A stretch of 52,517 nt of DNA from a virus. The translations under genes and the position numbers were made by a program. Location of the stretch: positions 1 to 52,517 of the IMG/VR virus record IMGVR_UViG_3300025000_000135, one strand, 5' to 3'. The notes under the pieces were generated by a model. The model was not told where the DNA came from. It searched no databases and worked only from the letters and a program-made list of their open reading frames with translations. This document shows, piece after piece, positions 2,689-48,359 of the stretch (positions are counted from its first letter, which is position 1; every line of letters starts with the position of its first letter).

Positions 2689-2767
2689 GTTATAAACCAA
2701 TAAATAAAATATTCCTTTACTTATTTTGCCTCACGATGTATAATTATTATGAAGTGAGGTGATAAGA

Positions 2768-2965: not shown

Positions 2966-3068
2966 GGATTGGGTTTTTGATACATATAATATAAGGGATA
3001 ATTCTGTTTTTGTTGAAGTAATAAATAATGTTATTTTGATAATTTAATATGGAGGAGGAAACATAATT

Positions 3069-14462: not shown

Positions 14463-14479
14463 TTTTACTCCCCCTATCC

Positions 14480-14522: not shown

Positions 14523-14558
14523 ATTATATGAAGATGCAAGGTTGGATTATGATTTAAT

Positions 14559-14846: not shown

Positions 14847-14851
14847 GTATT

Positions 14852-14910
14852 TTGCTTTGTTCGTAACTATGATATACTTAGTGACATACATAGTACACTA
14901 CTCTATGTAT
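14852..14910 (+). promoter_or_regulatory. Promoter and operator of the parA operon
   Basis: TATACT at 14873-14878 has a weak TTGCTT at 14852-14857 upstream. Just after it, ATACATAG (14886-14893) and CTATGTAT (14903-14910) form an 8-bp inverted repeat around the expected transcription start, enclosing the sequence TAGTACACT. This suggests autoregulation by the ParA or RHH protein. Confidence 0.5.
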
Positions 14911-14965
14911 TGGAAAAGTAATTATTAATTGTACTATGATTAATAGTTAAAAGGTGGTTATTATT

Positions 14966-15754
14966 GTGAGTAAATTAAATACTAAGATTATCGCAATATC
15001 TCTTCAGAAAGGTGGAGTGGGTAAAACAACTACTACGGTTTGTTTAGGTATGTCATTAGCTAAAAAAGGCAAGAAAATTCTTCTAATTGATTTTGATCCT
15101 CAAGGCCAAATTGCTCTTAGTTTTGGAATGAGACCCGAATCAATTGAAAAAACAATTTATGATGTATTTGTAGATAAGCACACTATTAAAGATGTAATTA
15201 TTAAAACTGACTATAAAAATGTTCATCTCATTCCTTCTAATTTATCTTTGGCAAATTTTGATATGCTCGTAGAACATAATAGGGAGGATTTTGTTCCGGC
15301 CTTATGGTTAAAAAACGCCATCGTAGACATTTTAGAAAATTATGATTTTGTGATTATTGATTGCCCTCCAAGTTTGGGATGGTTAACAGTAAATTGTCTT
15401 TCTTGTGCTAATGGTGTAATTATTCCTACTCCCCCAGAACAATTTGCGTTAAGTGGCCTCAACGATCTCAGCAAAACTGTAAAAATGGTTAAAGAAAATT
15501 ATAATTCCGATTTACAAATTTACGGAGTTTTAATGACTATTTTTACAGCACGAACAAATCTTTCTACAAATGTATCTCAAGAGATTCAAAAGTTTTGCGA
15601 ACAACATAATATCAGAGTATTTAATACGGCTATTAGAAGGTCTGTAAGAATTGGAGAAGCACAGTTTGTTGGCCAACCTCCTTTAGTTTATTCTCCTACT
15701 AATGATGCTGTAAAAGACTATGATGGATTTGGAAATGAGGTGTTGAAACTATGA
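14966..15754 (+). CDS. parA: ParA-type partition ATPase
   Basis: A 262-aa Soj/ParA protein with a deviant Walker A (QKGGVGKTTT, signature Lys in KGGVGK) at the N-terminus, Walker A' LLIDFDPQGQ and Walker B FVIIDCPPSLG. It lacks an N-terminal HTH, as in small chromosomal-type ParA. A GTG exists at 14954, but AAAAGGTGG lies 8 nt before the GTG at 14966, so that start is preferred. It overlaps the next gene by 4 bp (ATGA), implying coupled translation. Confidence 0.9.
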   Translation: MSKLNTKIIAISLQKGGVGKTTTTVCLGMSLAKKGKKILLIDFDPQGQIALSFGMRPESIEKTIYDVFVDKHTIKDVIIKTDYKNVHLIPSNLSLANFDMLVEHNREDFVPALWLKNAIVDILENYDFVIIDCPPSLGWLTVNCLSCANGVIIPTPPEQFALSGLNDLSKTVKMVKENYNSDLQIYGVLMTIFTARTNLSTNVSQEIQKFCEQHNIRVFNTAIRRSVRIGEAQFVGQPPLVYSPTNDAVKDYDGFGNEVLKL

Positions 15755-16629
15755 GTGCAAAGAAGAAACTCATTCCAGCAGTAGGATTTGCTAAAAGTAA
15801 GGATATTGAACAGATTACCGTAGTAGATACTGAAGTAGAAGCTATCAAGGATGTTGTACGTGAAACTATTCAAGATGCTGATGAGGTAAATGCATTGGAA
15901 TTGGTACAAGATACTAATGATAATACCAATCATGAAAGTGTTCAGGTTAATATTATGGACTCTAATAATGGTAGTATATTGAGTGATGAAGATAGTAGTA
16001 CACTGTCTATGTCACTGTGTACAATACTAGATCCTGAATTTGATAATAAATTAAGTAGCGAGGATACTGCTGACAATATTTCTATACAGGGAAATATTCA
16101 AAGTAGCGATAGTAAGGAAATTGACCAAAATATTGCTCATGAAGGTCTGAAAGGGGTTAAAAGTAGTATAAATGAACCTATCAAGACAACTACTCAGGAA
16201 ACTATTATTGAATCTTCTCAAGATAGTAGGAATAATAATGAACAGGTTGATGAAGTGTTGCCAATATTAGATAATTCACTAGATGTGGTAGATGTTACTA
16301 CTCATATCAGTAAATTTACTGAGGAATTAGATATGATACAGAGTAGTACACTGTCTAGTACACTAGAAAATAGCGAGGTATCTATTCAAGAGAATAATAA
16401 GGATATTGTAAAGGATAATGTTGTAAGTAATAAACAGTCTATTAGTAAGTTAACTTACCAGATACCAAGTAAGTCTGAGCCATTTTCAAAGCGTTTAGTG
16501 GCTAATGTTACCCCATCGCAGAAGTTATTTGTGCAAGAAATGAGCAAGAAGTTTGAAAATGAGAGTGCTTTTGTTCGTTTCATGATTTCACGGTTCATGG
16601 AAGACATTCAATTCAAGGAAAACGAATGA
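15751..16629 (+). CDS. ParB-role protein with C-terminal ribbon-helix-helix
   Basis: A 292-aa protein that is not a canonical HTH ParB. The first 230 residues are Ser/Asp/Glu-rich and probably disordered. The last 60 residues (RLVANVTPSQKLFVQEMSKK, then SAFVRFMISRFMEDI) look like a ribbon-helix-helix DNA-binding unit. RHH partners such as ParG and omega work with ParA, so position and fold suggest the centromere-binding partner. The SSTLS peptide occurs twice, encoded by the identical 15-mer AGTAGTACACTGTCT, as noted at 15996-16366. Confidence 0.6.
   Translation: MSAKKKLIPAVGFAKSKDIEQITVVDTEVEAIKDVVRETIQDADEVNALELVQDTNDNTNHESVQVNIMDSNNGSILSDEDSSTLSMSLCTILDPEFDNKLSSEDTADNISIQGNIQSSDSKEIDQNIAHEGLKGVKSSINEPIKTTTQETIIESSQDSRNNNEQVDEVLPILDNSLDVVDVTTHISKFTEELDMIQSSTLSSTLENSEVSIQENNKDIVKDNVVSNKQSISKLTYQIPSKSEPFSKRLVANVTPSQKLFVQEMSKKFENESAFVRFMISRFMEDIQFKENE
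15996..16366. repeat. TAGTACACT sites inside the partition gene
   Basis: TAGTACACT occurs at 15996-16004, 16344-16352 and 16356-16364 within the RHH gene, and also at 14891-14899 in the parA operator. The copy at 15996 continues as TGTCTATGT, close to CTCTATGT in the operator. These may be binding sites (parS-like or operator-like) placed inside the coding region. Confidence 0.45.
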
Positions 16630-29952: not shown

Positions 29953-32661
29953 TTATCTTACAGGACATACCCCTGAACTACATCCATCATTACCAATATC
30001 AAATTCAGTTTCAACTAACTCATATTTACTAATTAACGAAGGAATAAATGGTTTCATTTCAGAAACTCTTTTATTATATTCCTCTTCTGTAATAGCTTCG
30101 TATGGCATTAATTGATAAAATGAATCAGATAAAGATAGAAAACTTACAGCTACAACGTCATCCCAATTACTATACATCCATTCCTCTACTGCTCCCCATT
30201 CATCGTCACGAACCGTAACTGTAATTGAAGCATTATGATCAACATAGCAATCCATAAACATTTTATAATTTTCAAGTTGCTCAATTGCAGATACATCATA
30301 TTTAGTTCTTCCAATAGGAGATTTTACAGGAAATTCAATAACTTTTGTTGTACATGTTTCCATTTCCTGACCTACTTCTGGAAATATAGGATAATTTAAT
30401 TCTTCACAAACTTTAACTAAAGGATCATGGGCATTAATTCTCACTCTTCTAATAAACCAATCAGATTCAGAATAATGAACTCCTGATGAAACTCCAGGAA
30501 TTTGACTCAATGTGCCTTCTGGCTTTACGGTGGTTATTAATAATGATACTGGGAAACCCAATTCTTCTGCATAAATTTTAATTGTATCATGAGCAACTTC
30601 ACGTAATTTTATTAATAATTCAGATTCTTGATCTTTTGACATGCCTGTAGCATTAACCATATCTTGCCAACCAGTCAAAGAACATCCGGTAAGTCTATCT
30701 CTTTTTTGTACTATGTTCCATTTTGGAAGTTCTAATTCTACGCAAGTCATACGATAACCAGCTTTTGCAGATAATTGTTGTGCTTCCAATAGAGAAACTA
30801 AATCTAATACACTATCAGAAACAAAAGCATATACATTAACTGTCGTTAAATTACACAATCCATTTGCATCCAATAAAATTTCAGCACAATTATGTGCGAC
30901 TACATTTTCTACAATTCCCCAATTAGTAGATGGTTCTGAAAAATCATAAACATTTTGTTTGCCTAATGTTTTAATGGATATTACAGTTGGATTTTTTCCA
31001 TAATATGCTGATAAATTTTTATTTAATGAGTCCATGGCCTTACATTCTTGGCAGTTTTCTAACATTAATACGTGATCAGGAGTACATTTAATAACTTTAT
31101 TGTTGCTTAGTTGTACTTCAACAATATCTTTTTCTCCATTACACCAAACTTTACCATTTGATACATCCCCATTTAAATTAACAATCTGAACTTCTTTATC
31201 ATTTAATTCTTCGAATGTTTTATATCCATCTGAAGTTAATAAATTCATATCACCAGTAAAACAAGGATTAACTCCATTAAAATTTGGTCTGCGTTTATTA
31301 CCTGCAATCTCATTAACGAAAGCGGGTTCCCCTGAATATCGCATTTGTTCAATTTGCCAATGAATTTGATCTCTAGAAGGTTTTTCTTTATAATAGATAG
31401 AATTATTACTCATTTGCCTATGAGATAGTTCTGAATCTATTTCCCATTTTCCACTAGATGATTGTTTATATAAGTTGCTTTTTGCTTTTATACATTCATC
31501 ATCATCTGAATCAATTAAAGCAATCAAACTAGTCCTTCTTACTCCTCCAATCACAACGTTTTCACCAATACTCGCCAACATATCTAAACAATTAATTGGT
31601 CTAAGTTTAATTTTATCTAATCCTTGAATAAGTCCTTCTTTGTTGATAATTTTATTTACTTTAGAAAACATTGATTTTAAACTTTCATACCCAGAAGCCG
31701 TTCCACCAAATGTCTTTAATCTTTCTCCTTTTGGTCGGACGTAATTATAATCAAATACAACAGTTTTAATGTCTGTAAAATCTTTATCCCATAATATTTT
31801 AAAATAATAATCTAATGCTTGACTCCAACCACCCTTGCTATCACCTACAATTATTTTTATCATATTGTTGTTTATAAAAATAATAGATGTGTTGTCCTCG
31901 CGTTTATTTTTATAAACAGGTGTATAATCTTTATGGATTACTTCTATATTTGTTTTTACCTTTGGTAGTTTAGCAACGTCATCTTTAAGAATGCGAAATC
32001 CAAAACCGGAACCAATCATCAGTAAGTAAAAAGCATCTTTAAAAGATTCAAAATTATCAATAACAGAAAAACTACAATTAAAATTGGAAGTAGGGTATTT
32101 TTCTGAAACTAATGTTCCACCTATGTATAATGTTCTACCTGATAAGAATTGCCTAAGATTATAAATATTGTCGTATAATTTTTCTGCTTCTTCTTTACTT
32201 GTTGGTACTAAACTACAATTATATTCTACTGCTCTTTTTACAGTTTCCCACCAATATTCCCTACGTTGTTCTTCTGGCAAATATCTACTATATGTACGAT
32301 AATAAACAAAACTTCCTAATTGCTTCATTGGAGAAGGTAAATGTTTATATTTGCTCATGAATTCTTCACTAAGAAGTCCTTTTACTTTATTTTTACGAAC
32401 TTTGTCTCTTTGATTACGATAAATAATATATCTTTTTGCCACATCCTTTCTATTGCTTTCCATAAGAATATTTTCTACAAAATCTTGAATATCTTCAACT
32501 GAAAAAATATTTAATCCCATAGACTCAATTTTATTAGCAATATCATGACTTAGTTTTAAATCGACACCATCTTTTGTTTCAAGCATTGCCTTTTCTACTG
32601 CTCGAATAATGCTATTTTTATCAAAATCAACCAATGTGCTATTTCTTTTTTGTACTTTCAA
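29953..32661 (-). CDS. nrdJ: B12-dependent ribonucleotide reductase with mini-intein
   Basis: A class II, adenosylcobalamin-type ribonucleoside triphosphate reductase that makes dNTPs without oxygen or metal-radical subunits. Residues 1-90 are an ATP-cone; then GSFVYYRTYSRYLPEEQRRE, FNCSF (redox Cys), VIGGVRRTSL, the catalytic NPC, GLCNLTT (second redox Cys) and a C-terminal CSSGVC pair for thioredoxin. The NPC Cys is split by an intein at residues 467-591; the mature protein would be about 777 aa. Start TTG after GGAGGATACATAA. A structured 120-bp leader precedes it. Confidence 0.9.
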   Translation of the reverse strand: MKVQKRNSTLVDFDKNSIIRAVEKAMLETKDGVDLKLSHDIANKIESMGLNIFSVEDIQDFVENILMESNRKDVAKRYIIYRNQRDKVRKNKVKGLLSEEFMSKYKHLPSPMKQLGSFVYYRTYSRYLPEEQRREYWWETVKRAVEYNCSLVPTSKEEAEKLYDNIYNLRQFLSGRTLYIGGTLVSEKYPTSNFNCSFSVIDNFESFKDAFYLLMIGSGFGFRILKDDVAKLPKVKTNIEVIHKDYTPVYKNKREDNTSIIFINNNMIKIIVGDSKGGWSQALDYYFKILWDKDFTDIKTVVFDYNYVRPKGERLKTFGGTASGYESLKSMFSKVNKIINKEGLIQGLDKIKLRPINCLDMLASIGENVVIGGVRRTSLIALIDSDDDECIKAKSNLYKQSSSGKWEIDSELSHRQMSNNSIYYKEKPSRDQIHWQIEQMRYSGEPAFVNEIAGNKRRPNFNGVNPCFTGDMNLLTSDGYKTFEELNDKEVQIVNLNGDVSNGKVWCNGEKDIVEVQLSNNKVIKCTPDHVLMLENCQECKAMDSLNKNLSAYYGKNPTVISIKTLGKQNVYDFSEPSTNWGIVENVVAHNCAEILLDANGLCNLTTVNVYAFVSDSVLDLVSLLEAQQLSAKAGYRMTCVELELPKWNIVQKRDRLTGCSLTGWQDMVNATGMSKDQESELLIKLREVAHDTIKIYAEELGFPVSLLITTVKPEGTLSQIPGVSSGVHYSESDWFIRRVRINAHDPLVKVCEELNYPIFPEVGQEMETCTTKVIEFPVKSPIGRTKYDVSAIEQLENYKMFMDCYVDHNASITVTVRDDEWGAVEEWMYSNWDDVVAVSFLSLSDSFYQLMPYEAITEEEYNKRVSEMKPFIPSLISKYELVETEFDIGNDGCSSGVCPVR
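30889..31263 (-). other. Mini-intein in ribonucleotide reductase
   Basis: 125 residues from Cys (CFTGDMNLLT) to His-Asn (ENVVAHN), followed by extein Cys. Block A is the N-terminal Cys, block B lies in CTPDHVLML, block F in NVYDFSEPSTNWGIVEN, and block G is VVAHN|C. There is no homing endonuclease domain between B and F. The +1 Cys becomes the catalytic thiyl-radical cysteine of the NPCAE motif. Confidence 0.9.
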
Positions 32662-36024: not shown

Positions 36025-39000
36025 CTAATATACATCATAGTTGATAAGTATCTCTTCGTCCTCATCTGACTTCATCCACTTGCCGCCAACGTTCTTTGTC
36101 TTCTTTTGAGTTTTGAATTCATTGACTTTTAAGACATCATACAACTTAAATATATTCTCATTAAATATCTTTCCATCTTTAATTTTTGTTTTCATTTCTT
36201 TTCCATTATTTATTTGCCTTAAAGTTACGTAAGGTTTTGATTTATCCTTATAGGTTTCATACTTGATAACTATATAAAATTTATCTCCTGCATTCTCGTT
36301 CACATATTCTGTATATTCAAGGAATTCCATTTCGAATTTTACCTGTTCTTTAATTGATAATGGTTTGTCTTCAATGTCTTTAATTACCTCTTTAATATAT
36401 CCAATCATATCTAATTCTTTATATAAAGTTTTGGTAGTTTTTTTACTATGTTTTTTTAAAATTTCTTCATTAATTTTAAGTTTTTCTATATCTTTAAAAT
36501 TAATTTGTTTGGAATAAGCAAACTTATCATATAGTTCTATAATTTGAAGAAGTTTTTTATTTTTTCCAAAACATCTAAAGAAATTTAATCCAGTTAATAT
36601 TTTAAGTTGACGAGAATTTACTGATGCATTCTTTATATCACTTAATAACTCAATAAAATCTGTATAATTTTTTTGTTGTGATAAAGCATATAATTCATTT
36701 GGAACTTGTTCGTTAAGAAATTTAATTGAAGAAATACCTTTATAGATACTATTTTCTTTTTTATCAAATGTGTATTTTGCGATTGATTTACCAAATGAAA
36801 TAGGATTAATTTTTGCATTCAATTGATTAGCTAACGATACGCCTCTATTTGTATCTTCCTTGTTTTCTGATCTGTCTAGATAAGCAGTAGCAAATTCTAA
36901 TGGGTAATAAGTCCTTAATCTAGTCTCTGCGTATCCATTCATACTGTAGCCAGTGGAATGATTATATCCAAATTGATACTCAGAAGAATCGTCGATGATT
37001 TGAAGAAATTGTTTTGCCTCCTCTTCAGCAATATCTCTAAATTGATCAGATTTGTCGCAGTATCCTTCTAGAATTTTTGGTAACTGTTCATTTAAACCTA
37101 CTACATCTTTTTTGCCTATGCAATTATGCACAACCAACCCATTTGCAATATAATTATGATTATCTTTCACTTCAATATCATATACATTACTTTCTCCTAC
37201 ATATTCTATACTCTTAACTCTTAAAGGTATATATTCTGTTGATAACAACCAGTAAGTGTAAGGTATATACAATTCTTTGGATACTTCTTTTGCCTTTATA
37301 TCAGAAATACCAAATTCTGTAGAATGTACATTAAAATTATTTCCTTTGTAACCCAAAGCACGACCAATATCATTGAAAGATTTATTAAATATCAACATAT
37401 TGTTTCTTACTTCTTCTTTACATTTATTAGGTAGTAAATAGTTAAATTTCCCTGTATTTGATATAACATTATCTATAATATTATTAAATCTATTTAATTT
37501 ACTACCAACTATATATTTTAAAATATATTTTGAAAAGTTATTTAAAGATTCTGTTTGGGTAATATATACTCTATAAGAGTTATAATTATAATCAGATATC
37601 CACTTTTTTAGAATGTAACTATATATACCAAATTTTAATAATAAATATTGTATTTGTTGTGCTAGTATTTCTGAATTTGTTGAATAATCAATATATCCTC
37701 CATAACATCCACCGTCTGTGCTAAATAAACCTCCAAGTAAGTTTTGCAACTTATCTCCAATGGGGTAACTCATAAACTCATCAGGTAATATTTTATCTGC
37801 TGCATGATGCCTTAGATTAAATTTGTTTAATAAGTTCACTAATGCGTTATTTGAAGTTTTTGTTTGAACCCGTATGTTATATATTTTGTCTACATCAACT
37901 CCTTTTTGTGAGGAAATTGTAAATTCACAATTGATTTGTTTATCTTTGTTTGGTGTAATTCTACTAATAATACAATCTTTAAATTTATCAATTAATGCCA
38001 TTTCTGAATTAGTAAATGATGGATTTGAATTGTGACCACCACTTCTAGAAAATGAGTAAATTGTTCCATCACCAATTAACATCCCAATTAAAAACATTTC
38101 CTGACAAGATAATCTTTCACTAGGTTTTAAATTATCTTTATCTGAATTTATTTTCTTAAGAGACATAATTGAATCATCGGTATTTAAATCCCTAATATAT
38201 TTATATCCATCTTGTGTAAAAACTTTATGATCATCTGTTGCAATTAATTCCTTTCCATGAATAGTTGTAACTTTATATGTATTCTTGACACCATTATTAA
38301 AAACATTCATAACATCTTTTGTTTCTGAAACACCGTATTCGTTTACAGACATTACCTTTTCACCAATTATAATATCTTTAATCTTTTTGATATTACCGTT
38401 ACCCATCATCACCAATGTATTTTCGTCAACACATCTTCTAGTGGTATCCGCTAAAGATCCGCTAAATCCACAAATGTCTGTTAGAAATTTAATGGTATCT
38501 TCCTGATATACTAAATATCCATAATTATCTTGTAGTAAATTATCCAATTGTTTCGAGGGATTTACATTAACTTCTTTCTTAATTAATCTATCTCTATATG
38601 ATTTACCGGATGGACGTAAAGCAGCATTTACCAAAGACATATCATTAATAAATCTAGGTTTAAAGTCTTTAAGTAGTGAGAAGGCGTAGTCTCCCTCAAA
38701 TTGAAAAACTCCCACATTTGAAGTAATCATATTATCCCAAACCTTATTATCATTCCAATCAATTTCATGAGCTTTAAGATAATGAGAGCCTATTGATTTA
38801 TACACATCTTTCATTATTCCAACAGTTTTTAATCCTAATATATCGAACTTTACAAAATTTACAGAGTCAACTGCTTTCATAGAACATATTGATATTGGGT
38901 GAGATTCATCCCCATCTTTATAATAGACACCTAGATTATCAGCAAGTGTAATTGGAGAACCTATAATACCTGCCGGATGAGTACCTTTTGCTATAATAGT

Positions 39001-40635
39001 CCCTTTTAAACCATCAAAATAATAAAATAAATCTTTATTATTGTCTTTAAGATTTTGAAATTCTTTCTTTAAATTATTTGCTCTGGTTAGTGCTTTATTA
39101 TTTCTAATTCTATTACAATAAACTTCATGATAGTCAAAATCAACAGATTTAGCATCCACCTCATCTAATTCCTCTAGATTAACTTCTTCTTGGATTATTT
39201 TAAAATATTCATCAAATAATTTATCAAATTCATTTTTAATATTCATTACCACATCTAAATTTTCATATTTTAAACCTTTTGCTAATACATCAATAGTTCC
39301 TCTATCTCTTAAAGTTGAAAATGCTGATATATATGCGGTTTTCTCTGGTGTAAACCTTTTGATAATATATTCATAAACTTTTACACGATCCTCTGGAGCG
39401 AAATCTATATCAATATCTGCAAGAGAAACTCTATCAGCATTACAAAATCTTGAAAAAACAGTATTCCATCTGATAGGATCTACATCAGTAATATCTGTAA
39501 TAAAAGCAACTTCACTACCACCAACAGAACCACGACAAAACCCATATGGTATTTCATTCTCATTACAGTAATCAACTAATTCAGACATAAACATCATAAA
39601 GCTTTCCATATTTTGCTTTTTCATTGCTTCAAATTCTTCATTTATTTTTTTCTTATACTCATCTAATTTAGTTAAATCAAGAATATTATTATCCTTTTTT
39701 TCTTTAAACTTTTTTGCAATAGTTTTTTTCCAAATATCTACTGCATTATTCCCATAAAGATTAGGATACTTAAATGACTTATCTAATTTAAATTCTTCAA
39801 CCATATCAGCAAATTTATTTGTGTTAGATATAGCTTCCATCCATACCTCTTCGGGCAACGCATTTTGGATTCTAAAACACTCAACCAATTCATCAAAACT
39901 TTTCCAAGTAAGATCAAATTCATCCTCTTCTCCGTAGAAACTATCTTTTGATATTTGGAGAATTTTTCTACATTCTGCTTTATATTTTGAAGATGAATGT
40001 GTATCTGTACCGGCTATTAGAGGTATATTATATTGTTTACTCCATCCCCACAGTAATTTATTGTATTCTATTTGATGTTCGTGTGTGTGGTACTGGATCT
40101 CTAAAAAACACCTATGACTATTTTTAGACATCCACTCTAAAAATCTCTGTACGTAGTCATCTTCATCATCTTTTTTTCTCCATAACATCGAAGCTAAACA
40201 AGCAGTTGTAATTATAATATTTTCACTTGTATTCATTAACTCTTCAAATGATATTCTAGGATTATAATACATGTGCCTATCTGTTTTGTCATCTAATTTT
40301 CCTTTGGAAGTAGATTTAGAATTTAAAGTGTTTAATTCTAATACTCCATTATAATTCTTAGCATATAATCCAATGTGATATCCTCTTTCATCTGCTTCAT
40401 ATTTAGTACACATATATGATTCAATGCCATGTATGTATTTAATTCCTGCTTTATCGCAATCCTGTTTCTTTTTTATCCAATCGTACATTCCTCCGTGGTT
40501 AGAAAACGCTAATGCTTTACATTTTTCTTTTTTAGCAAGTTTAATATATTCTTTATAACTAGTACACGAATCAGAATAACCATTACAATTACTTGTATCG
40601 TCATGAACGTGGTATCTTACATAATTCTCTATCAA
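36025..40635 (-). CDS. dnaE: DNA polymerase III alpha subunit (DnaE type) with LAGLIDADG intein
   Basis: A 1536-aa replicative polymerase. It has an N-terminal PHP domain (RYHVHDDTSNCNG), GFCRGSVGGS, the catalytic LADIDIDF (Asp at about 407 and 409) and a third Asp in KFDILGLKT (about 598). No DEDD exonuclease is inserted, so it is DnaE rather than PolC. An intein occupies residues 735-1171; removal leaves about 1099 aa, normal for DnaE, joined as TTRRCIGKK. Start TTG after AGGAGGATTATAAT. Between the RecB-like nuclease and RecD-like helicase genes. Confidence 0.9.
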   Translation of the reverse strand: MIENYVRYHVHDDTSNCNGYSDSCTSYKEYIKLAKKEKCKALAFSNHGGMYDWIKKKQDCDKAGIKYIHGIESYMCTKYEADERGYHIGLYAKNYNGVLELNTLNSKSTSKGKLDDKTDRHMYYNPRISFEELMNTSENIIITTACLASMLWRKKDDEDDYVQRFLEWMSKNSHRCFLEIQYHTHEHQIEYNKLLWGWSKQYNIPLIAGTDTHSSSKYKAECRKILQISKDSFYGEEDEFDLTWKSFDELVECFRIQNALPEEVWMEAISNTNKFADMVEEFKLDKSFKYPNLYGNNAVDIWKKTIAKKFKEKKDNNILDLTKLDEYKKKINEEFEAMKKQNMESFMMFMSELVDYCNENEIPYGFCRGSVGGSEVAFITDITDVDPIRWNTVFSRFCNADRVSLADIDIDFAPEDRVKVYEYIIKRFTPEKTAYISAFSTLRDRGTIDVLAKGLKYENLDVVMNIKNEFDKLFDEYFKIIQEEVNLEELDEVDAKSVDFDYHEVYCNRIRNNKALTRANNLKKEFQNLKDNNKDLFYYFDGLKGTIIAKGTHPAGIIGSPITLADNLGVYYKDGDESHPISICSMKAVDSVNFVKFDILGLKTVGIMKDVYKSIGSHYLKAHEIDWNDNKVWDNMITSNVGVFQFEGDYAFSLLKDFKPRFINDMSLVNAALRPSGKSYRDRLIKKEVNVNPSKQLDNLLQDNYGYLVYQEDTIKFLTDICGFSGSLADTTRRCVDENTLVMMGNGNIKKIKDIIIGEKVMSVNEYGVSETKDVMNVFNNGVKNTYKVTTIHGKELIATDDHKVFTQDGYKYIRDLNTDDSIMSLKKINSDKDNLKPSERLSCQEMFLIGMLIGDGTIYSFSRSGGHNSNPSFTNSEMALIDKFKDCIISRITPNKDKQINCEFTISSQKGVDVDKIYNIRVQTKTSNNALVNLLNKFNLRHHAADKILPDEFMSYPIGDKLQNLLGGLFSTDGGCYGGYIDYSTNSEILAQQIQYLLLKFGIYSYILKKWISDYNYNSYRVYITQTESLNNFSKYILKYIVGSKLNRFNNIIDNVISNTGKFNYLLPNKCKEEVRNNMLIFNKSFNDIGRALGYKGNNFNVHSTEFGISDIKAKEVSKELYIPYTYWLLSTEYIPLRVKSIEYVGESNVYDIEVKDNHNYIANGLVVHNCIGKKDVVGLNEQLPKILEGYCDKSDQFRDIAEEEAKQFLQIIDDSSEYQFGYNHSTGYSMNGYAETRLRTYYPLEFATAYLDRSENKEDTNRGVSLANQLNAKINPISFGKSIAKYTFDKKENSIYKGISSIKFLNEQVPNELYALSQQKNYTDFIELLSDIKNASVNSRQLKILTGLNFFRCFGKNKKLLQIIELYDKFAYSKQINFKDIEKLKINEEILKKHSKKTTKTLYKELDMIGYIKEVIKDIEDKPLSIKEQVKFEMEFLEYTEYVNENAGDKFYIVIKYETYKDKSKPYVTLRQINNGKEMKTKIKDGKIFNENIFKLYDVLKVNEFKTQKKTKNVGGKWMKSDEDEEILINYDVY
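37123..38433 (-). other. Intein with LAGLIDADG endonuclease in DnaE
   Basis: 437 residues starting Cys (CVDENTLVMM) and ending GLVVHN before extein Cys. Block B is TDDHKVF. The endonuclease helices FLIGMLIGDGT (about residue 848) and LLGGLFSTDGG (about 966) keep their acidic ends, so it may be active. Blocks F and G are NVYDIEVKDNHNYIANG and VVHN|C. It sits at the conserved TRRxIGKK site, where the residue is normally Ala. Confidence 0.9.
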
Positions 40636-40653: not shown

Positions 40654-41787
40654 TCATAGGTTATCCATCCAACTTAAATCGTCTTCATCCTTTTTATTAT
40701 CTGCCGAACTAAAATATTTTCTCTTTTCTAAATAAACAGCATATGGTTTATGCAAGTTTGCACTATATCCACTCAGATTTGCAAAGAAGTATGATTCAGA
40801 ATCAGTTACTTCTTCCCACCATACATTTTCATCTTTAGTTTTCATATATTCACATTCTTTTTTGCCAATATCTACAATAGCATCTACAATATCTGCCTTG
40901 AGTTTCTTAATTTCTTCTTGTGAGAATGGTATATAAACATAACAGTCACTGAGTTTGTATTTTATTTTTATGTCTTCTGGCAAACTATTTATATCATTTG
41001 TCATAACTAATAACTCTAAATATGATTCAATTTCTTCGTCTGAGTAACATTTCGCTTTTTTGAGCCACATCTTAGCGTTTGATTTTAAACTAGACCCAAT
41101 CTCGTTCCTCGCAATATTCCTCTCAACTATTTTTTCATTCGCCTGTTGCACTTCTACAATTACATATTTTAGGAAATCCCATCTTATTTTTATCTTTTCT
41201 AAAGGTACTCCAAGCTGTATTAAAGCTTCGGCATATAAAACCAACTGTCCTTTTTCTTTGTCTATTTTTTTACCTGTATATATGCTTGAAGTTTTCCAAT
41301 CCGTGATAATAAAATAACCATCTTCTTTGTGGATAAAGTCAATATAGCCTTGAAATATAAAATTATTAACTTTTACAATAATAAATTTTTCTATTTCTAC
41401 TTTTTTGTTATTAATAACTTTATGATTTTGGAAGAAATGTCTTAGACATGATTCATACTTATTAGCAATATTATTATTTTTTTCTTCATTAGTCCTATCA
41501 TATTTTAACTCTCCTGCATTGAATGTAAATAATACGTTTTCATATTCTTGTAGCATATCTTCATATTCGATTTCCTTAGAGTAGAATTTCTCTAGAATTC
41601 CATGACACGCATTACCACTTACCCCATAAATACCATCATCTCTGTCTTCTTTTACTTTTGCTATGTATTTAAGATAGAATTCGTATACTGAATTTTTATA
41701 ACAATTATATCTACTCCAACTCCAGAGTTGGTGAACATTATATTTCTTTTTTAGTTTTTCTAATTCTTCGCCTGTTTTTCGAGCCAC
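40654..41787 (-). CDS. RecB/AddB-like PD-(D/E)XK nuclease
   Basis: A 377-aa nuclease of the Cas4/RecB family. The core reads FQGYIDFI (motif Asp), FIITDWKTSS (DxK) and KGQLVLYAEAL (motif with Gln and Tyr); GNACHGILEKFY supplies the N-terminal His. There are no four Cys for an iron-sulfur cluster. The C-terminus DEDDLSWMDNL matches that of the ssDNA-binding protein. Start GTG overlaps the stop of the AP2 gene. Probably processes DNA ends during replication-linked recombination. Confidence 0.75.
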   Translation of the reverse strand: MARKTGEELEKLKKKYNVHQLWSWSRYNCYKNSVYEFYLKYIAKVKEDRDDGIYGVSGNACHGILEKFYSKEIEYEDMLQEYENVLFTFNAGELKYDRTNEEKNNNIANKYESCLRHFFQNHKVINNKKVEIEKFIIVKVNNFIFQGYIDFIHKEDGYFIITDWKTSSIYTGKKIDKEKGQLVLYAEALIQLGVPLEKIKIRWDFLKYVIVEVQQANEKIVERNIARNEIGSSLKSNAKMWLKKAKCYSDEEIESYLELLVMTNDINSLPEDIKIKYKLSDCYVYIPFSQEEIKKLKADIVDAIVDIGKKECEYMKTKDENVWWEEVTDSESYFFANLSGYSANLHKPYAVYLEKRKYFSSADNKKDEDDLSWMDNL

Positions 41788-42623
41788 TATATAACCACCT
41801 TTATATTATTATTTATTGTTTGGGTATACTGTCTTTCTAATTTGTTTAAACAAGCATTTTTAATTTTACTGTCTATCCAATAAAAATCTTTCAAATATAA
41901 TAAAAGTATCTCTTTCTTTTTGATATGATATTTTTCATATGCTTCTCTTACATCTAAAAATCTACCAAGACTTATTTTCTTACCTTTATATTTTACAGCA
42001 GAAATATACACAAGATCATCTTCTAAATAATAAGTACCCTCATACCCTGCAGTATTTGTAATTTGCTTATTAATAAAAATATTATTTATTTGTTCTGGAA
42101 TAAAACAGCAATTATTTAAACTATAAGTTTTCGTATCTGTAATTATATCTTTGTCTAAGCAAAATTTTATATTAGGATATTCAATAATTTTATCAACGCC
42201 TAGTATTTTGCTATAATCTTCATTAAAATTTTTAAAACAATGCCAACGTTCATTTATAAAAGCATCAATATAAGTAGGATTTTTAACTAACTCGTCTTTA
42301 CTGTATACTCTTTTTAGCATATTTACCCATGTTACATAGGACTTCAACTCCCTTACATTATTATAAAAGTTTCCTATATATCCATGATTATAAATACTTG
42401 GCAATAATAAATCTTTTGCATTTCCTTTATTAATATTTCCAGCAGTAACTATTGATTGGTATTTTGTTTTTACAAATTCACATACGTAAGTTTTCGTGCC
42501 AGTTCTGTCTTTTCCGTATACGCCTTTAACTGAAAATTCACCATAATGTTTTGATTCGAATATTTTTCCGATATATTTTTCTCTATCAATTCTGCTCTCT
42601 AATTCTAGATTAATATTATACAC
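41787..42623 (-). CDS. AP2-like putative homing endonuclease
   Basis: A 278-aa phage-type protein. TAGYEGTYYLEDDLVYISAV then KYKGKKISLGRFLDVREAYEKYH looks like an AP2 domain. The N-terminal half (GEFSVKGVYGKDRTGTKTYV, then WVNMLKRVY and WHCFKNF) recalls phage proteins related to HNH enzymes, but I see no HNH signature. It starts GTG 9 bp after the primase stop. It is wedged between primase and nuclease genes, a typical homing position. Confidence 0.55.
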   Translation of the reverse strand: MYNINLELESRIDREKYIGKIFESKHYGEFSVKGVYGKDRTGTKTYVCEFVKTKYQSIVTAGNINKGNAKDLLLPSIYNHGYIGNFYNNVRELKSYVTWVNMLKRVYSKDELVKNPTYIDAFINERWHCFKNFNEDYSKILGVDKIIEYPNIKFCLDKDIITDTKTYSLNNCCFIPEQINNIFINKQITNTAGYEGTYYLEDDLVYISAVKYKGKKISLGRFLDVREAYEKYHIKKKEILLLYLKDFYWIDSKIKNACLNKLERQYTQTINNNIKVVI

Positions 42624-42632
42624 TTAAATTGA

Positions 42633-43700
42633 TTACCTACTTTCTAAATATTTCATATGTGTTTTATGTTCCGTTTCGTCATAAAGAGTTTTGTATTTAA
42701 ACAAATAGTTGTAAAAACGATTAGTTGTATCCGCAGGACTCATCTTATCCTCAAGCAAACCATATTTATCATATATGTAATATACAGTCCTAATACCATA
42801 AAAACGATCACAGGCACTTCTTATATGTTCTATTGAAATTCCCTTATCAAAAGCAATAACTACATCAACATTTAACCCAATCAATATCTTTACTTGTTCA
42901 TCTGAGATATCATGACAACAAACAGCAACACCAGTGCCATCATTTCTACTATGACGCTTTAAAACACTCTTCTCGGCCTCGTATACAACAACATATCCTG
43001 TTTCTTGTATGGTTTGATAATTCTCTTGTAGTCCATAGATATTCATGCTCTTAGGGAAGTTTTTTAATGGGAAATATTTTGGTATATCTAACATCTCCCA
43101 TTCTTTAATTACTGTTCTACCTATAACACCTACATAATCATTTTTTTCTCCACTCCAATACCGATGAGGAATAACTATTCTCTTTTTATTTACACTATAT
43201 CCAATATTAAATACTTTTGATGTCCAAGGCATAATACCATCTTCTCTAACCCATTCTATATGGATGTATGGTATATACTCGCTCAAACAGTCTTCGTTTA
43301 TTACATCTAAATTATTTATATCTGTATACTTTTTCTTTTTTACCTTCTTGAAAATTTCTAATGGGTCTTTAAAATCAGTATCGTTCTTTTTATTGAATTT
43401 GAATTTATATTCAAGGCCAAATAGATTGTGTATATATCTATTAGCTTCTGAAAACGAATAATTTTTGATAGTTTGACATAGTGTAAATATATTGCCTCTA
43501 ATAATATTACTATTAGATTGAAATACTTTAGTTTTAAGCGTTTCTTTTTTAATCGAAATAGCATCCTTGCTTGAATGAGTAGGTAATCCACACCTATATT
43601 CCTTGCCGTATTCCTTAAGATGATGACAACCTAAGTCTTCAAGTATATTTAAAATTTTGTCATTATCAATAATGTACTGGATAAGTTCATTTGCTGTCAT
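42633..43700 (-). CDS. dnaG: DnaG-type DNA primase
   Basis: A 355-aa primase. A zinc-binding CHC2-type head lies at residues 25-42 (CHHLKEYGKEYRCGLPTH). The TOPRIM domain has YVVVYEAEKSVLK (Glu, about residue 240) and VVIAFDKGIS (Asp, near 283) followed by DKMSPADTT. The usual DxD reads DKG, so one metal-binding Asp is missing or shifted. It is short (DnaG is about 600 aa) and lacks a helicase-binding C-terminus. It lies directly after the helicase gene, so the two likely work together. Confidence 0.8.
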   Translation of the reverse strand: MTANELIQYIIDNDKILNILEDLGCHHLKEYGKEYRCGLPTHSSKDAISIKKETLKTKVFQSNSNIIRGNIFTLCQTIKNYSFSEANRYIHNLFGLEYKFKFNKKNDTDFKDPLEIFKKVKKKKYTDINNLDVINEDCLSEYIPYIHIEWVREDGIMPWTSKVFNIGYSVNKKRIVIPHRYWSGEKNDYVGVIGRTVIKEWEMLDIPKYFPLKNFPKSMNIYGLQENYQTIQETGYVVVYEAEKSVLKRHSRNDGTGVAVCCHDISDEQVKILIGLNVDVVIAFDKGISIEHIRSACDRFYGIRTVYYIYDKYGLLEDKMSPADTTNRFYNYLFKYKTLYDETEHKTHMKYLESR

Positions 43701-43715
43701 ATCACCATCCCCTTT

Positions 43716-45236
43716 TTAGAAATCTACTGGAACTACTGTATAACCAACCTCTTTGTATGTGTTTCTTGAAAGGTCGTGCTCCACAACGATCTGATAATCA
43801 TTTGTACTACCTTCGCGATTCTTAACAATAAATATAATCTGATAGTTTTTACCTTTCTTTAATTTTACAGGAATTTGTGATTCGGTATTACCTTGTCTTT
43901 TTTCTTTCCTGTAAACATCTAACTCGCGCTTACCTCCCTCTATTTCATCTTCAAATACCTTTCTAATCATCAAACAAGTTGATGCAACGTCAACAATATT
44001 CTTTGCCATACCTATATTGTCTTGATCATAGTATCTTTGTTTTGAACTACCTTTACTTAATTGAAATGTAATCCAAATATGTACATTCTTCGCTTCTGAT
44101 TTAATCACATCATTAATTTCAACCATATTTTGTTGCATACTGAACCAAAATGACTCACTGCTTGATGCCTTAGAATCTGCTTTATATGTATCTAACATGA
44201 AGTATTTTACACCCATACTAGCATACTTTTTTATTGTTTTAATAGCCTTCGCTGTAGTATATTGAGTGAATGGTTTTAGTATAATTGTGTTTTTATATTG
44301 CTTAACCCATTCAGAACATTTCTTAAGTAGTGCTTTTACTTCTGGTTTATATCTACCATCTCGGACGATATATTTTTGTAAATCTTCTTTGAAGATATTA
44401 TTAGCTACCCAAACCAAAAATTCACGTTGCCATTTCTTTTTACCTTCTTCGTTTATCATTATGACTATTTTTTCTTTATGTTCTAATATACTTGGAAGAA
44501 TTAGAATCCTGCTAAGTGCGGTTTTACCAACACCACTAAGTCCACCGACAAGAGTAATATTTCCTTCAAGATTACCGCCAACTTCTTTATTTAGCGTTGG
44601 TGTATTATGCAAAGGTAAACCTACCGCCATTCCTTGATCTAGTTCTTCGATTAATTCATCTAAACCATCAGAAATATCATGGGTAATATCATCACCTTCA
44701 ACGTTAACAAAAACATGATTCAATACTGCTTCGAACTCGTCATATATTTGTTCAGATGTCATATCTACAAAATCACTAATTCTATCGAAAATAGGAAATT
44801 TTCTTTTTAATAAATCTAATACAGCATTCCATTTATGAAGTTCATTAATATATCCATCCATATTTTCGGTCTTCACATATGCTTTTGCATTTTCAATTGT
44901 TTCATAACCTTTATATTTTTCATATTGTTCTTTTAACTTCAAGTGCTTTTCTAGGTATAGTCCTACAGTTATGTCGTCAAGCACTTGCTTTTTTTCTTTG
45001 ATTACTATGTCGTAACCTATCTGCCAATAAACCTTCCAAACATTTTCTGTAAAATTTGCAAGTTTTAAATTATCGTATGTATAATACAGATCATGGTTTT
45101 TCCAAAGGATACTCACTATGTTTGCTTCACATGCTTTTTTGTATTCTCTTATTTTCTTACTTGATTTTAATAATTCCTCTTCAAATGGAGTTAACTTTGT
45201 ATCTTTTGTCTTGTTAGTTTGAGTAATAGTTGTCAC
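43716..45236 (-). CDS. dnaB: DnaB-like replicative helicase
   Basis: A 506-aa hexameric helicase. The N-terminal 190 residues are helical, like the DnaB collar. The RecA core has GGLSGVGKTALSRI (Walker A, about residue 232), IVIMINEEGKKKWQREFL (motif 1a with the catalytic Glu), VKYFMLDTY (Walker B) and VHIWITFQLSK (motif H3), ending in arginine-finger-like RKEKRQGNT. Start GTG with AAAAAGGTAG upstream. Part of the primase-helicase unit. Confidence 0.85.
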   Translation of the reverse strand: MTTITQTNKTKDTKLTPFEEELLKSSKKIREYKKACEANIVSILWKNHDLYYTYDNLKLANFTENVWKVYWQIGYDIVIKEKKQVLDDITVGLYLEKHLKLKEQYEKYKGYETIENAKAYVKTENMDGYINELHKWNAVLDLLKRKFPIFDRISDFVDMTSEQIYDEFEAVLNHVFVNVEGDDITHDISDGLDELIEELDQGMAVGLPLHNTPTLNKEVGGNLEGNITLVGGLSGVGKTALSRILILPSILEHKEKIVIMINEEGKKKWQREFLVWVANNIFKEDLQKYIVRDGRYKPEVKALLKKCSEWVKQYKNTIILKPFTQYTTAKAIKTIKKYASMGVKYFMLDTYKADSKASSSESFWFSMQQNMVEINDVIKSEAKNVHIWITFQLSKGSSKQRYYDQDNIGMAKNIVDVASTCLMIRKVFEDEIEGGKRELDVYRKEKRQGNTESQIPVKLKKGKNYQIIFIVKNREGSTNDYQIVVEHDLSRNTYKEVGYTVVPVDF

Positions 45237-45244
45237 CTACCTTT

Positions 45245-45700
45245 TTACCATAAATCTTCTAATGTGTAACTTAGTTTTTTAGTCTTAGGTTGATATTCTG
45301 CTCCCTCATGATAAATATTTTCCATATCTATATTCTCAGCTTTTGTTTTTGCATTTTCAGCATTTCTTAATCTTATTACCATATCATTAATATTTCCTTC
45401 GATAATAACCATTGCATAATTGAATTTGTGCTTTTCATCTGTAAACTTGGTATTATTGGTTCTAAAACCGACTAATATATTTGGTCTACATAACTTAAAA
45501 GTATATAAAATAGTTTTAAATTCATAACTACACATAGGAGTTTGCTTCTTGTTTGCTAGGAATTGCCCTGTAGCAAGACCTTTTAATCTTAATATTATAT
45601 ACTTTGGTAATTTTATATCAGGAGTATATTCCATAATTTCTTTTTTAACATACTCATAAAGATCAATCCAATCTTGGTCTTTTCTAGGTTTAACAGTCAT
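45245..45700 (-). CDS. Hypothetical protein between helicase and Sak4-like genes
   Basis: A 151-aa basic protein I do not recognise. KLPKYIILRLKGLATGQF is a strong amphipathic block, and the tail ends KLSYTLEDLW. The position, 8 bp before the helicase gene, suggests a helicase loader or accessory factor, but nothing in the sequence proves it. GAGGTGAGAGAGT precedes the ATG. Confidence 0.5.
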   Translation of the reverse strand: MTVKPRKDQDWIDLYEYVKKEIMEYTPDIKLPKYIILRLKGLATGQFLANKKQTPMCSYEFKTILYTFKLCRPNILVGFRTNNTKFTDEKHKFNYAMVIIEGNINDMVIRLRNAENAKTKAENIDMENIYHEGAEYQPKTKKLSYTLEDLW

Positions 45701-45727
45701 ACTCTCTCACCTCTAATTGTAAGTTTA

Positions 45728-45750
45728 GGGAGGAAAATTAATTCCCTCCC
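45728..45750. other. Intercistronic hairpin after the Sak4-like gene
   Basis: GGGAGG and CCTCCC pair around an AT-rich loop with a near-perfect extension, 10 bp after the Sak4-like stop. With a similar hairpin at 46938-46965, it may define transcript ends or stability. Confidence 0.4.
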
Positions 45751-45759
45751 ATTTATTAT

Positions 45760-46899
45760 TTATTTACCATCTATCAAATCAAATAATATATTTGCATGTT
45801 CTAAATTATCAACTTTTGTAGGGTTTACATATCCTAACTCTTTACTTTTTAGGAGCAATGGTTTTAAAATTTCAGAATTTGATTTGTTTATTTTTACAAA
45901 ACTAGTAATCATTGCTACAAGTTTTTCTACTTCTAAACCTGCAAGTTCTTCTTTCTTTTCAGAGACATTTTTTTCTACAACCTTATCTTTTTCTACTGCT
46001 TGTTCTACTTTTGTTTCTTCAATTGACTTATTTCCAGATTGTTTATCGTGTTCAATTTTAATGGCATCCTCAACAGCTTTGATAAAATCTGATGAATTAA
46101 ACTCAATTGAATCTATGATTTCAGAAAATCTTGATTTTGAATCTACATTAAAATTGTCATCTCTGAAAGTAATTTTCCTACTTTCATTTTTTACATGACC
46201 TTTAATTTTGTCTTTCCCTGCTAAATCTTTCTTGCCAGTCTTTTCCATAACAATTTCTCTATCAATGCTTGCTACACCAAGAATATGTAATTTTGTTTTT
46301 AGTGCAGTAAAATAATTAAGTTGCATATTCGTTGTAATAATATTGTACTCAGTACCTGATACTGCATCTGTCATTGTTCTTTCTTTTGTATGACCAACTA
46401 AAAACATAGCCACTCCAACTCTTTTTAACTCCCATAGTACCCCCATAATCATGTCAATAGTATATATTTCACCTTTACCAAAACCACCCCAAGCTCCATT
46501 AATTGTCTTAACAATCTTAGGGTCTTTTTTTCCGTATTGATCTTTATTAGAAAGTCTAATAGCCTCTGGTTCTGCAATGCGAATTAATTCATCAATGGTA
46601 TCCCATACTATAACCTTTAAATCCTTATAATCTGTTAACTTATTTTCTATGATATCTGTTGTAAATTCCTCAAAAGTATCCCAATCTGGAATATCCTCAT
46701 ATATCGCACCAGCGATTGCATCAATTCCATCCTCTCTACCTACGTTGGCAATAATATAACCATCTTCTCCTACGAGTTCCTCACACACCTCTTTTGCGAG
46801 TGTGGTTTTACCAATACCACTTAGTCCAATTAAACCTAAGTTATATGCTAAAGGATCTACCTTAATAATGTTCTTCTTACCAAATTTTCTCTCTGCCAA
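45760..46899 (-). CDS. Sak4/RecA-like single-strand annealing ATPase
   Basis: A 379-aa AAA ATPase of the phage Sak4 type. Walker A is GLSGIGKTT at residues 25-33 and Walker B KVIVWDTID (about 102). A long INGAWGGFGKGEIYTIDMIM segment and VGHTKER fit the family, which anneals or pairs DNA strands together with a partner SSB. The C-terminal 130 residues are charged and helical, longer than usual. Start TTG with GAAAGAAGG upstream. It is followed by the ssDNA-binding gene in the same operon. Confidence 0.75.
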   Translation of the reverse strand: MAERKFGKKNIIKVDPLAYNLGLIGLSGIGKTTLAKEVCEELVGEDGYIIANVGREDGIDAIAGAIYEDIPDWDTFEEFTTDIIENKLTDYKDLKVIVWDTIDELIRIAEPEAIRLSNKDQYGKKDPKIVKTINGAWGGFGKGEIYTIDMIMGVLWELKRVGVAMFLVGHTKERTMTDAVSGTEYNIITTNMQLNYFTALKTKLHILGVASIDREIVMEKTGKKDLAGKDKIKGHVKNESRKITFRDDNFNVDSKSRFSEIIDSIEFNSSDFIKAVEDAIKIEHDKQSGNKSIEETKVEQAVEKDKVVEKNVSEKKEELAGLEVEKLVAMITSFVKINKSNSEILKPLLLKSKELGYVNPTKVDNLEHANILFDLIDGK

Positions 46900-46937
46900 A
46901 AAGTTTACCTTCTTTCAACTATTTTATTTTCATTGGT

Positions 46938-46965
46938 AAGGAGAGAGGTTTAACTCCCTCTCCTT
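46938..46965. other. Intercistronic hairpin between ssDNA-binding and Sak4-like genes
   Basis: AAGGAGAG and CTCTCCTT form an 8-bp stem around a 12-nt loop in the 85-bp gap between the two genes. There is no T-run on the - strand, so it may act in RNA processing or translation control. Confidence 0.45.
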
Positions 46966-46984
46966 TGTTTATTACTCTCGATTA

Positions 46985-48184
46985 TTACTCTTGATTTTCT
47001 CCGTTTTCTTCATCTAATGCATCCATCCAAGACAAATCTTCTTCGTCTTTTTCCTCTTCTTCATTGTTTTCTGCATCGCTTTCTTCTGACTCTTCTTTTT
47101 TAATCATGAAGTCAAAAAGTAAGTCCTCATCCTTATATTGACCTTCTGTTTTTAGAATTATAGGTTTTTTATTGTCATCTTCTCCAACCATTTTGATTGC
47201 AGGTCTACGAATCACCATTTTCTTTTCCTTACTTCCACCTACGGCTAGTTTATTAATAGCGTCTTCCATAGTATAAGCACCCATATCAATAAGTTCCATG
47301 ATGTCAGCAGGAATATCTGACTCAGTGATATTAACTAAAGATTGACCTTCAATAATATCTCCCTCAATAGTAACTTCTGTGATATCTTTCTTTACTTTTA
47401 AAACTTTATCAAGGAATTTCTTAGTATTTTCTGGTTTAACTTTATCCACTTCAAGTTCAAATATTTTATCAAATGCGATATTTTGTTTTACCAACTTGCC
47501 ATCATATTCTTTTACATAATCTACAACCTTAGCATAGATAGGGTAAATAGCTTTTTCTTTATCTAGTTTACCAACACTATCTTTATCAAGAAGAATGGTT
47601 TGGGTGAATACTGCTTTGTATTTTGATGGATCGTCAACCTTTGATAAAAATATACTCGTAATTTCTTTTACCGCCTGAGTTGAGTCTTGATATGTTTTGT
47701 ATACGTAGTCACCTTTAATATTAACAACCATTCCGTTTTTCAGATGTTCTTGTATATATTCAATGGCATCATATGGTGATAAGAAAGTTTTTGCAAATGT
47801 TTTTTCTTTAATATCCTTTTCTAGTCCAACTGTAATAAAACATTGATTGCCGATAGTTTCAAGAATTTCTTCGTCAAATCTATCTTCCCAAGCAATTGTA
47901 AACTGATTTTTATAATCGTCAACATCTTTATCTTTATCATTCTTTTTTACACCGTGCACATAGAGAATATTATCTCTTTCAGAACCATATCCACCCATTA
48001 AGTCAGCATAGACAACATTGCCACCACCACAATCCACCCCAAGATTTAGTTTATTCCAAACCCAATCAGATTTTGTAGTAGTCTCATCCATTTTAAATGT
48101 AAAGTCTGATAGTTTAGCTTCTCCGATTAATTGAAACGATGATTGCCCTTTTTTTAGTGGTTTTTTATCTTCTTTCTTTGCCAT
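46985..48184 (-). CDS. Large single-stranded DNA-binding protein
   Basis: A 399-aa protein with an acidic, Glu-rich C-terminal tail, typical of phage-type SSBs. The N-terminal 250 residues contain several beta-rich stretches like OB folds (GNVVYADLMGGYGSERDN, VNIKGDYVYKTYQDST). The tail has DEEDLSWMDAL, shared with the RecB-like nuclease. The start is set at 48184 (MAKKEDKKPL) because AGAAGGA lies about 9 nt upstream and would be inside a longer frame from 48205. It is the first gene of the Sak4/helicase/primase operon. Confidence 0.65.
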   Translation of the reverse strand: MAKKEDKKPLKKGQSSFQLIGEAKLSDFTFKMDETTTKSDWVWNKLNLGVDCGGGNVVYADLMGGYGSERDNILYVHGVKKNDKDKDVDDYKNQFTIAWEDRFDEEILETIGNQCFITVGLEKDIKEKTFAKTFLSPYDAIEYIQEHLKNGMVVNIKGDYVYKTYQDSTQAVKEITSIFLSKVDDPSKYKAVFTQTILLDKDSVGKLDKEKAIYPIYAKVVDYVKEYDGKLVKQNIAFDKIFELEVDKVKPENTKKFLDKVLKVKKDITEVTIEGDIIEGQSLVNITESDIPADIMELIDMGAYTMEDAINKLAVGGSKEKKMVIRRPAIKMVGEDDNKKPIILKTEGQYKDEDLLFDFMIKKEESEESDAENNEEEEKDEEDLSWMDALDEENGENQE

Positions 48185-48359
48185 ATTATGTATTCCTTCT
48201 TTCAATAATTTATTTTATTATTTAATGCACATGATCTTATAAAAATATATTGAAAGAAGGTGGAGATTTATTTTTCTTAACAGGTTTCCAACAGTTACCT
48301 TTGTTTTTCAACCAATCAATCCTTTCTCTAAAATATTATTTATTTTTAACCACTTAATA

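Follow-up and report, generated by a model that had tools for sequence, protein, structure and literature searches.

A C-terminal peptide common to the exonuclease and the SSB-like protein of a viral replication module is most likely a lineage-specific docking code

Two proteins with the same tail

The window studied here is the entire 52.5-kb virus record IMGVR_UViG_3300025000_000135 (52,517 nt). Its replication module encodes an exonuclease and a protein resembling single-stranded DNA-binding proteins (SSBs), and both carry the same acidic peptide at or near the C-terminus, which is the subject of this work. According to Pfam and PHROGs, the module is ordered as SSB, Sak4-like protein, a 151-amino-acid protein (p151), DnaB helicase, primase, a 278-amino-acid protein without Pfam match, PD-(D/E)XK nuclease, DNA polymerase III alpha (Pol) and RecD-like helicase. 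This order was found again in Bacillota phages and phage-plasmids (e.g., Thomasclavelia TR-TP1, Psychrobacillus Perkons, Lysinibacillus LC76P1 and Bacillus velezensis plasmids). The two tail carriers and their tails are located as follows.

40654..41787, minus strand: PD-(D/E)XK exonuclease, 377 amino acids, first tail carrier (Pfam PDDEXK_1, 4.3e-17, above the cut-off; PHROG 1218 exonuclease, 1.7e-41)
40657..40689, minus strand: nuclease tail DEDDLSWMDNL, the last residues before the stop codon
46985..48205, minus strand: SSB-like protein with two OB folds, 406 amino acids as listed, second tail carrier (PHROG 2367, unknown function, 2.3e-38)
47015..47047, minus strand: SSB tail DEEDLSWMDAL in a disordered acidic C-terminal region (from the sequence and the model of a relative, L026)

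The nuclease domain is well defined, with E133, D150, D163 and K165 invariant in the nuclease alignment (A2). The SSB-like protein has no Pfam name, and its gene probably starts at the ATG near 48184. A Foldseek search with the AlphaFold2 model of the L026 relative returned SSBs of D. radiodurans or Thermus as the top eight matches (E 5e-6 to 3e-4, with modest TM-scores). The model thus supports a predicted OB-fold SSB as the product of 46985-48205 and an SSB annotation, with predicted single-stranded DNA (ssDNA) binding, for PHROG 2367. In the same model the C-terminal tail region has a predicted local distance difference test (pLDDT) score of 31-44.

The nuclease gene reads ...KKDEDDLSWMDNL up to its stop, and the SSB-like gene ...KDEEDLSWMDALDEENGENQE up to its own; in the SSB the motif DEEDLSWMDAL is followed by DEENGENQE before the stop. 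DLSWMD occurs in these two frames and is absent from every other frame of the window. An earlier note on this DNA, made from the sequence, had observed that the peptide is spelled by different codons in the two genes (TTAAGTTGG versus TTGTCTTGG) and proposed that the match is selected at the protein level. The codon difference was confirmed and selection on the protein is supported, the codons being largely different: the two genes agree at only 5 of the 11 aligned codons and 24 of the 33 nucleotides, which rules out a copied DNA segment as the origin of the match.

Within the window the exact match is only weakly significant. Although DLSWMD is the sole 6-mer common to the C-terminal 30-mers of the 53 open reading frames (ORFs), 120 of 2000 sets of residue-shuffled C-termini (6%) also had some common 6-mer, because the tails are acidic. 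These shuffles leave room for a chance match as long as only the window is considered, and it was ruled out using relatives: the match is significant because the peptide is conserved and covaries across them.

Conservation in relatives

The earlier note's reading depended on the peptide being present in relatives, and it is. In IMG/VR relatives the nuclease, at 41-100% identity, retains its tail, and so does the SSB; this viral set is unevenly sampled, partly from related metagenomes, and its locus starts were set mechanically. The form acidic-[SDA]-W-[LM]-x-x-[LI], hereafter W-type, is present on both proteins in 44 of 88 distinct SSB/nuclease pairs. The consensus is [DEN]-D-x-[SDA]-W-[LM]-[DKN]-x-L for the SSB tail and [DE]-D-[LM]-S-W-[LM]-[DNE]-x-[LI] for the nuclease tail. 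At position +4 of the W-type tails, leucine is found in 45/45 SSBs and leucine or isoleucine in 53/53 nucleases.

Covariation of the two tails

Most pairs beyond these 44 have other spellings that are matched inside each genome, e.g., DLLAMLENM on the SSB with DLLSFLDSL on the nuclease. In more distant relatives, EDDDLLAMLENM is paired with EEDDLLSFLDSL, DDDLMSLLND with DDDLKDLLNLLD, and DMDALLNELDED with DILALLQQLED. Further matched spellings are NAFDELFA/DLFDNLFS, GDDEFDALFN/SEDFFDELFS and DLDDLFA/DFDDLFK. In 20 of the 88 pairs a motif of the [FL]DxLF kind is present on both proteins. The code is not always literally identical, as six pairs have a W-type tail on the nuclease but an LxxLL one on the SSB.

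Tails from the same genome resembled each other more than shuffled partners did in the 88 pairs, with z of 7.5, 5.9 and 3.4 when nuclease identity was kept below 70, 50 and 40%, respectively. The excess persisted without the W-type pairs (z 4.2), and residue order contributed to the similarity (mean z 2.2). When the SSB or nuclease tail was compared in the same test with the C-termini of Sak4, DnaB, primase, Pol and p151, the result was essentially flat (z -1.5 to +2.3), the upper value being a marginal one for nuclease and helicase. We consider it very improbable that the two tails have no common receptor and are alike by chance or composition. The weak significance of the exact 6-mer within the window would fit such a view, but the conserved spacing of tryptophan and leucine or isoleucine, the effect of residue order and the specificity of covariation for the SSB/nuclease pair all oppose it.

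Among representatives, the W/non-W co-occurrence counts were 18/1/4/21 (Fisher 2e-7). On a DnaB tree the W trait changed 9 times in the SSB and 5 times in the nuclease; the two switched together in 4-5 independent cases and never in opposite directions, a number too small for significance in a sign test on independent contrasts. Distances between SSB tails and between nuclease tails correlated even after all protein bodies were controlled for (partial r 0.14, p 0.001), where tail distances rest on 16-22 residues and are hence noisy, and Mantel-type tests remove phylogeny incompletely.

A prediction set beforehand was that the tails would match in type in three Lactobacillus phage-plasmids whose SSB lies distant from the nuclease. 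The SSB/nuclease tails are DDVFNDDELFG/VVEDMFS in pLM1, EEDVFGGLFND/TTLEELFS in p53608_1 and LDELDLF/EIMNMLFG in pMP1046B. The prediction was upheld only as an acidic tail with a closing aromatic motif, the spelling not being identical. In Lactobacillus phage-plasmids (L279-L283, L051, L052 and L056), SSB-Sak4-DnaB is distant from primase-nuclease-Pol, and SSB and nuclease tails often have two tandem motif copies, e.g., DEFAEMFADDDDTVVEDMFS in a nuclease.

Relation to the bacterial SSB tip

The window SSB has acidic residues in a disordered tail, as bacterial SSB C-terminal peptides (SSB-Ct) do, judging from its sequence and the low pLDDT of the L026 tail. The terminal Pro-Phe (PF) of SSB-Ct is missing from the window, where the SSB ends in NGENQE and the nuclease in WMDNL. 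PF ends were found in 9 of 110 distinct SSB tails and in 0 of 107 nucleases. Five of these nine SSBs (L085, L092, L122, L192 and L193) contain the private motif and, after it, a distinct ...EIPF or ...DLPF terminus. Because these five carry both codes, the tail is not the bacterial SSB tip, and a degenerate form of that tip was ruled out. Elements with a PF tip only (L046, L047, L268 and L269) have nucleases without a matching acidic tail. The view that the code is private and separate from the host SSB tip, already expressed in the earlier note, is supported.

The five SSBs with both ends also bear on the possibility that a host protein is the receptor and that the spelling follows host taxonomy. 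Clostridial spellings do differ from those of Bacillus or Lactobacillus elements, as this would require. On the other hand, a private motif stands beside a host-like PF tip in these SSBs, and plasmids of the single species B. velezensis have more than one spelling (FDELFA/FDNLFS in plaBV1 versus DWMKELGI/DELLKMLGL in pBvelV314_2). A host receptor therefore seems to us a slight prospect.

Number of carriers

Whether further proteins have such a tail was a question raised in the earlier note; the window and four contigs, each between 130 and 167 kb long, yielded none. Every ORF end in these sequences was scored, the SSB and nuclease reaching 51-77 and any other ORF at most 31; the G004 nuclease was split across two fetched pieces and its tail was taken from L026. 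A W-type scan of 205 loci gave no third carrier either. The exception is Vagococcus p35B2_c1, in which a 232-amino-acid protein upstream of dnaB ends in DEDFDSLFD and forms a third carrier; a query with the Vagococcus helicase returned no viral relatives. For these contigs and loci a wider hub code with many carriers is thus ruled out, Vagococcus p35B2_c1 alone differing. As read from the sequences, the tails most likely form a two-carrier, lineage-specific docking code.

Other C-termini of the module have peptides of their own. p151 (PHROG 25520), which is possibly a helicase loader, and its relatives end in a strongly conserved LxxLW, or LxxLF in some, a second docking-like C-terminal peptide. 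It was ruled out as part of the same code, as no covariation was found (z -0.8 and -1.2). The DnaB-like helicase at 43716-45236 and most of its near relatives end in a conserved Asp-aromatic pair (...VPVDF, ...ISQDW). The ORF at 1132-2688 (plus strand), with a weak HTH_36 match and possibly a replication initiator, ends in EEDYDFEDDDFTKLFG, and this end resembles the F-type SSB and nuclease tails of other lineages.

Candidate receptors

Both tails most likely address a single partner through a private docking signal, and this partner is probably the phage's own DNA-annealing protein. The candidates encoded in the module, besides the two carriers, are listed below.

45760..46899, minus strand: Sak4-like RecA-family annealing protein, 379 amino acids, the receptor we would favour (PHROG 124 Sak4-like, 5.4e-18)
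45763..45984, minus strand: C-terminal helical domain (CTD) of Sak4, putative tail-binding domain (occurs on two diverged Sak4 cores)
45245..45700, minus strand: p151, directly upstream of the helicase gene, not a tail carrier (PHROG 25520, unknown)
43716..45236, minus strand: DnaB-like replicative helicase, alternative receptor (PHROG 19, 8.8e-40)
42633..43700, minus strand: DNA primase, alternative receptor (PHROG 47, 4.2e-31)
36025..40635, minus strand: Pol with intein, alternative receptor (Pfam DNA_pol3_alpha, 1.4e-45; Intein_splicing, 1.7e-19)

The Sak4 assignment follows from a RecA-like core, indicated by the PHROG 124 match and, for the L026 relative, by an AlphaFold2 model whose best PDB match is 8rc5, a Sak4 single-strand annealing protein (E 6e-8). 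The Sak4 gene of L087 (ORF 963-3194) is interrupted by an intein-like insertion that falls precisely within its Walker A motif (GK/T).

To compare candidates, partial Mantel tests were done on 87 genomes with the other proteins controlled for, Pol being added in the 51 genomes that hold it. The combined tail distance correlated with the SSB body (0.47) and the nuclease body (0.16). Among non-carriers the Sak4 CTD alone stood out, weakly (0.105, p 0.001; SSB tail 0.13, nuclease tail 0.06), whereas values were -0.02 for the Sak4 core, 0.03 for DnaB, -0.09 for primase and 0.05 for Pol. Of the partners suggested in the earlier note for the shared peptide, the helicase and polymerase showed, like the primase, essentially no tail-specific coevolution, and the Sak4 CTD showed a weak signal.

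Accordingly, a receptor within the replisome (helicase, primase, Pol or p151) appears rather improbable. Such a receptor would suit genes lying in one replication module, and phage T7 offers a precedent, since the charged C-terminal tails of its helicase contact basic patches on T7 polymerase (PMC8472574). The partial correlation is at most marginal, however, for DnaB (up to 0.06), primase or Pol and absent for p151, and in the Lactobacillus plasmids the synteny of the SSB is broken, with primase, nuclease and Pol together, while SSB tails still match in type.

Sak4 is favoured because of the weak CTD correlation, published Sak4-SSB biochemistry and the analogy with the CTD of Red-beta. For phage HK620, binding of Sak4 to ssDNA coated by SSB requires the six C-terminal residues of the SSB (PMC5928155). 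The Red-beta CTD binds SSB as well as lambda exonuclease (PMC8303780), and some Sak4 proteins of Firmicutes are reported to have a C-terminal domain distantly resembling it (PMC8093625). The Sak4 CTD is present on both diverged Sak4 core types and, in the loci studied here, on Sak4 alone, whole or truncated. In the read-through model discussed below, taken as a whole, AlphaFold2 predicts C-terminal helices at 363-407, 412-424 and 436-447 with a pLDDT of about 83.

Several observations weigh against Sak4. The nuclease tail follows the SSB body (partial 0.45) more closely than the Sak4 CTD (0.06). Sak4 is present in all 151 loci holding SSB and nuclease, so its presence cannot discriminate between candidates. 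The CTD also occurs in L046 and L047, where the SSB has a PF tip only, and thus does not by itself predict the code. No Pfam family and no credible PDB sequence match was obtained for this domain, and hhalign against the Red-beta CTD, for which a single lambda sequence was used, gave a probability of 0.3%, i.e., no detectable similarity. For a natural read-through in which the SSB tail of L026 continues in frame into Sak4, AlphaFold2 gave a pLDDT of 33-39 for the tail and 25-27 for the linker, and for the whole L026 SSB alone a tail pLDDT of 39-44; both models were read out for confidence and secondary structure only and are uninformative on docking. The tail was placed neither on Sak4 in the read-through nor on the SSB core in the SSB-alone model.

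The strongest rival to Sak4, though an unlikely one, is the SSB core itself. The SSB tail would fold back on its own OB fold, in the manner proposed for other acidic-tailed SSBs, and the tail of the nuclease would dock on SSB-coated ssDNA. This arrangement needs only the two carriers. Even with nuclease, DnaB, primase and Sak4 controlled for, the nuclease tail follows the SSB body (partial 0.45, or 0.52 with Pol included; p 0.001), and does so more than it follows its own body (0.11). This strong link could reflect either an SSB-core receptor or an SSB body that is a less noisy marker of the SSB lineage. Against an SSB-core receptor, AlphaFold2 leaves the tail of the whole SSB disordered, and a generic acidic tail mimicking DNA need not retain W-[LM]-x-x-L.

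We give still less credence to the nuclease body as receptor, in which case the SSB tail would activate the nuclease and the nuclease tail would be an autoinhibitory mimic. Several bacterial exonucleases bind SSB tails. ExoI is an example (PMC10143822), and here a partial correlation of 0.12 (p 0.001) links the SSB tail to the nuclease body. The signal is weak, though, and lower once Pol is added (0.11, p 0.037).

Proposed mechanism

We propose that one short linear docking motif is present twice, at the C-termini of the SSB and of the exonuclease, and consists of disordered acidic residues that would close in a short amphipathic helix when bound. The motif would take the form W-[LM]-x-x-[LI] here and DLLxML, FDxLF or LDDLF in other lineages. 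Both copies may bind one surface on a single partner encoded by the phage, either in turn or on separate subunits, and for that reason their spellings would change together. The partner would be the Sak4 annealing protein, with its CTD reading the tag. The nuclease could then bring Sak4 to the end being resected and the SSB could bring it to SSB-coated ssDNA, so that the annealing protein would be loaded behind the nuclease and kept apart from the host SSB interaction network. From the correlations and analogies given above, Sak4 is the most likely reader of the tag, a choice we make with some hesitation. The explanation as a whole, including binding, receptor, helical state and hand-off, is tentative, if the best of those considered.

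Comparison with known systems

The same trio of proteins is found in the lambda system, where one domain of the annealing protein, a three-helix CTD, contacts both exonuclease and E. coli SSB. In contrast, here one peptide is common to the exonuclease and the SSB, the RecA-like Sak4 takes the place of Red-beta as the core, no sequence similarity of the two CTDs was detected by hhalign, and the system is known from sequence. HK620 also has a Sak4-family protein with an adjacent SSB, whose C-terminal residues recruit Sak4 (PMC5928155). That SSB, however, has the host-like tip NDYPPF, the Sak4 it recruits is small (25.6 kDa), and the passages considered here mention no nuclease with the same tail. 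The bacterial SSB-Ct (DDDIPF) hub likewise uses an acidic disordered C-terminal peptide to recruit DNA-metabolism proteins, but the tail described here has a different consensus, need not be terminal, is also present on a protein other than SSB, and can coexist with a DDLPF or EIPF tip. T7 similarly uses acidic phage tails for docking between replication proteins; there the helicase is a carrier, whereas here the helicase has no such tail and an exonuclease carries the second copy.

Hubs built on SSB tails, and acidic tails common to several proteins, are known in kind. No earlier report of a resection nuclease with the private tag of the SSB, coevolving with it across lineages and separate from the host tip, was found in searches of the open-access literature, which omits most subscription papers.

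Other features of the element

Inteins were found in the window Pol (36025-40635, minus strand) and in a B12-dependent ribonucleotide reductase (29953-32661, minus strand; Intein_splicing below the cut-off); many relatives have an uninterrupted Pol of about 1100 amino acids. Actin-like (ALP_N) and ParA-like genes lie at 13572-16629, and the product of 9183-11555 matches PHROG 5156 and, weakly, AAA. Together these genes suggest a plasmid-like or phage-plasmid lifestyle.

Implications

A widespread family of Bacillota phages and phage-plasmids may run its own two-carrier code, re-spelled in each lineage in step with one receptor, which would shield phage annealing from the host SSB network, although some SSBs would still have access to that network through a second, host-type tip; we offer this generalization with reserve. 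SSB tails are a classic recruitment hub, and a second protein with the same tag, re-spelled together with the SSB, provides natural matched and mismatched pairs for a receptor search. Such pairs would also serve to test how a phage annealing protein loads at resected ends. Furthermore, a docking code of this kind could account for the dependence of some phage annealing proteins on their cognate SSB, which is relevant to recombineering in Gram-positive bacteria.

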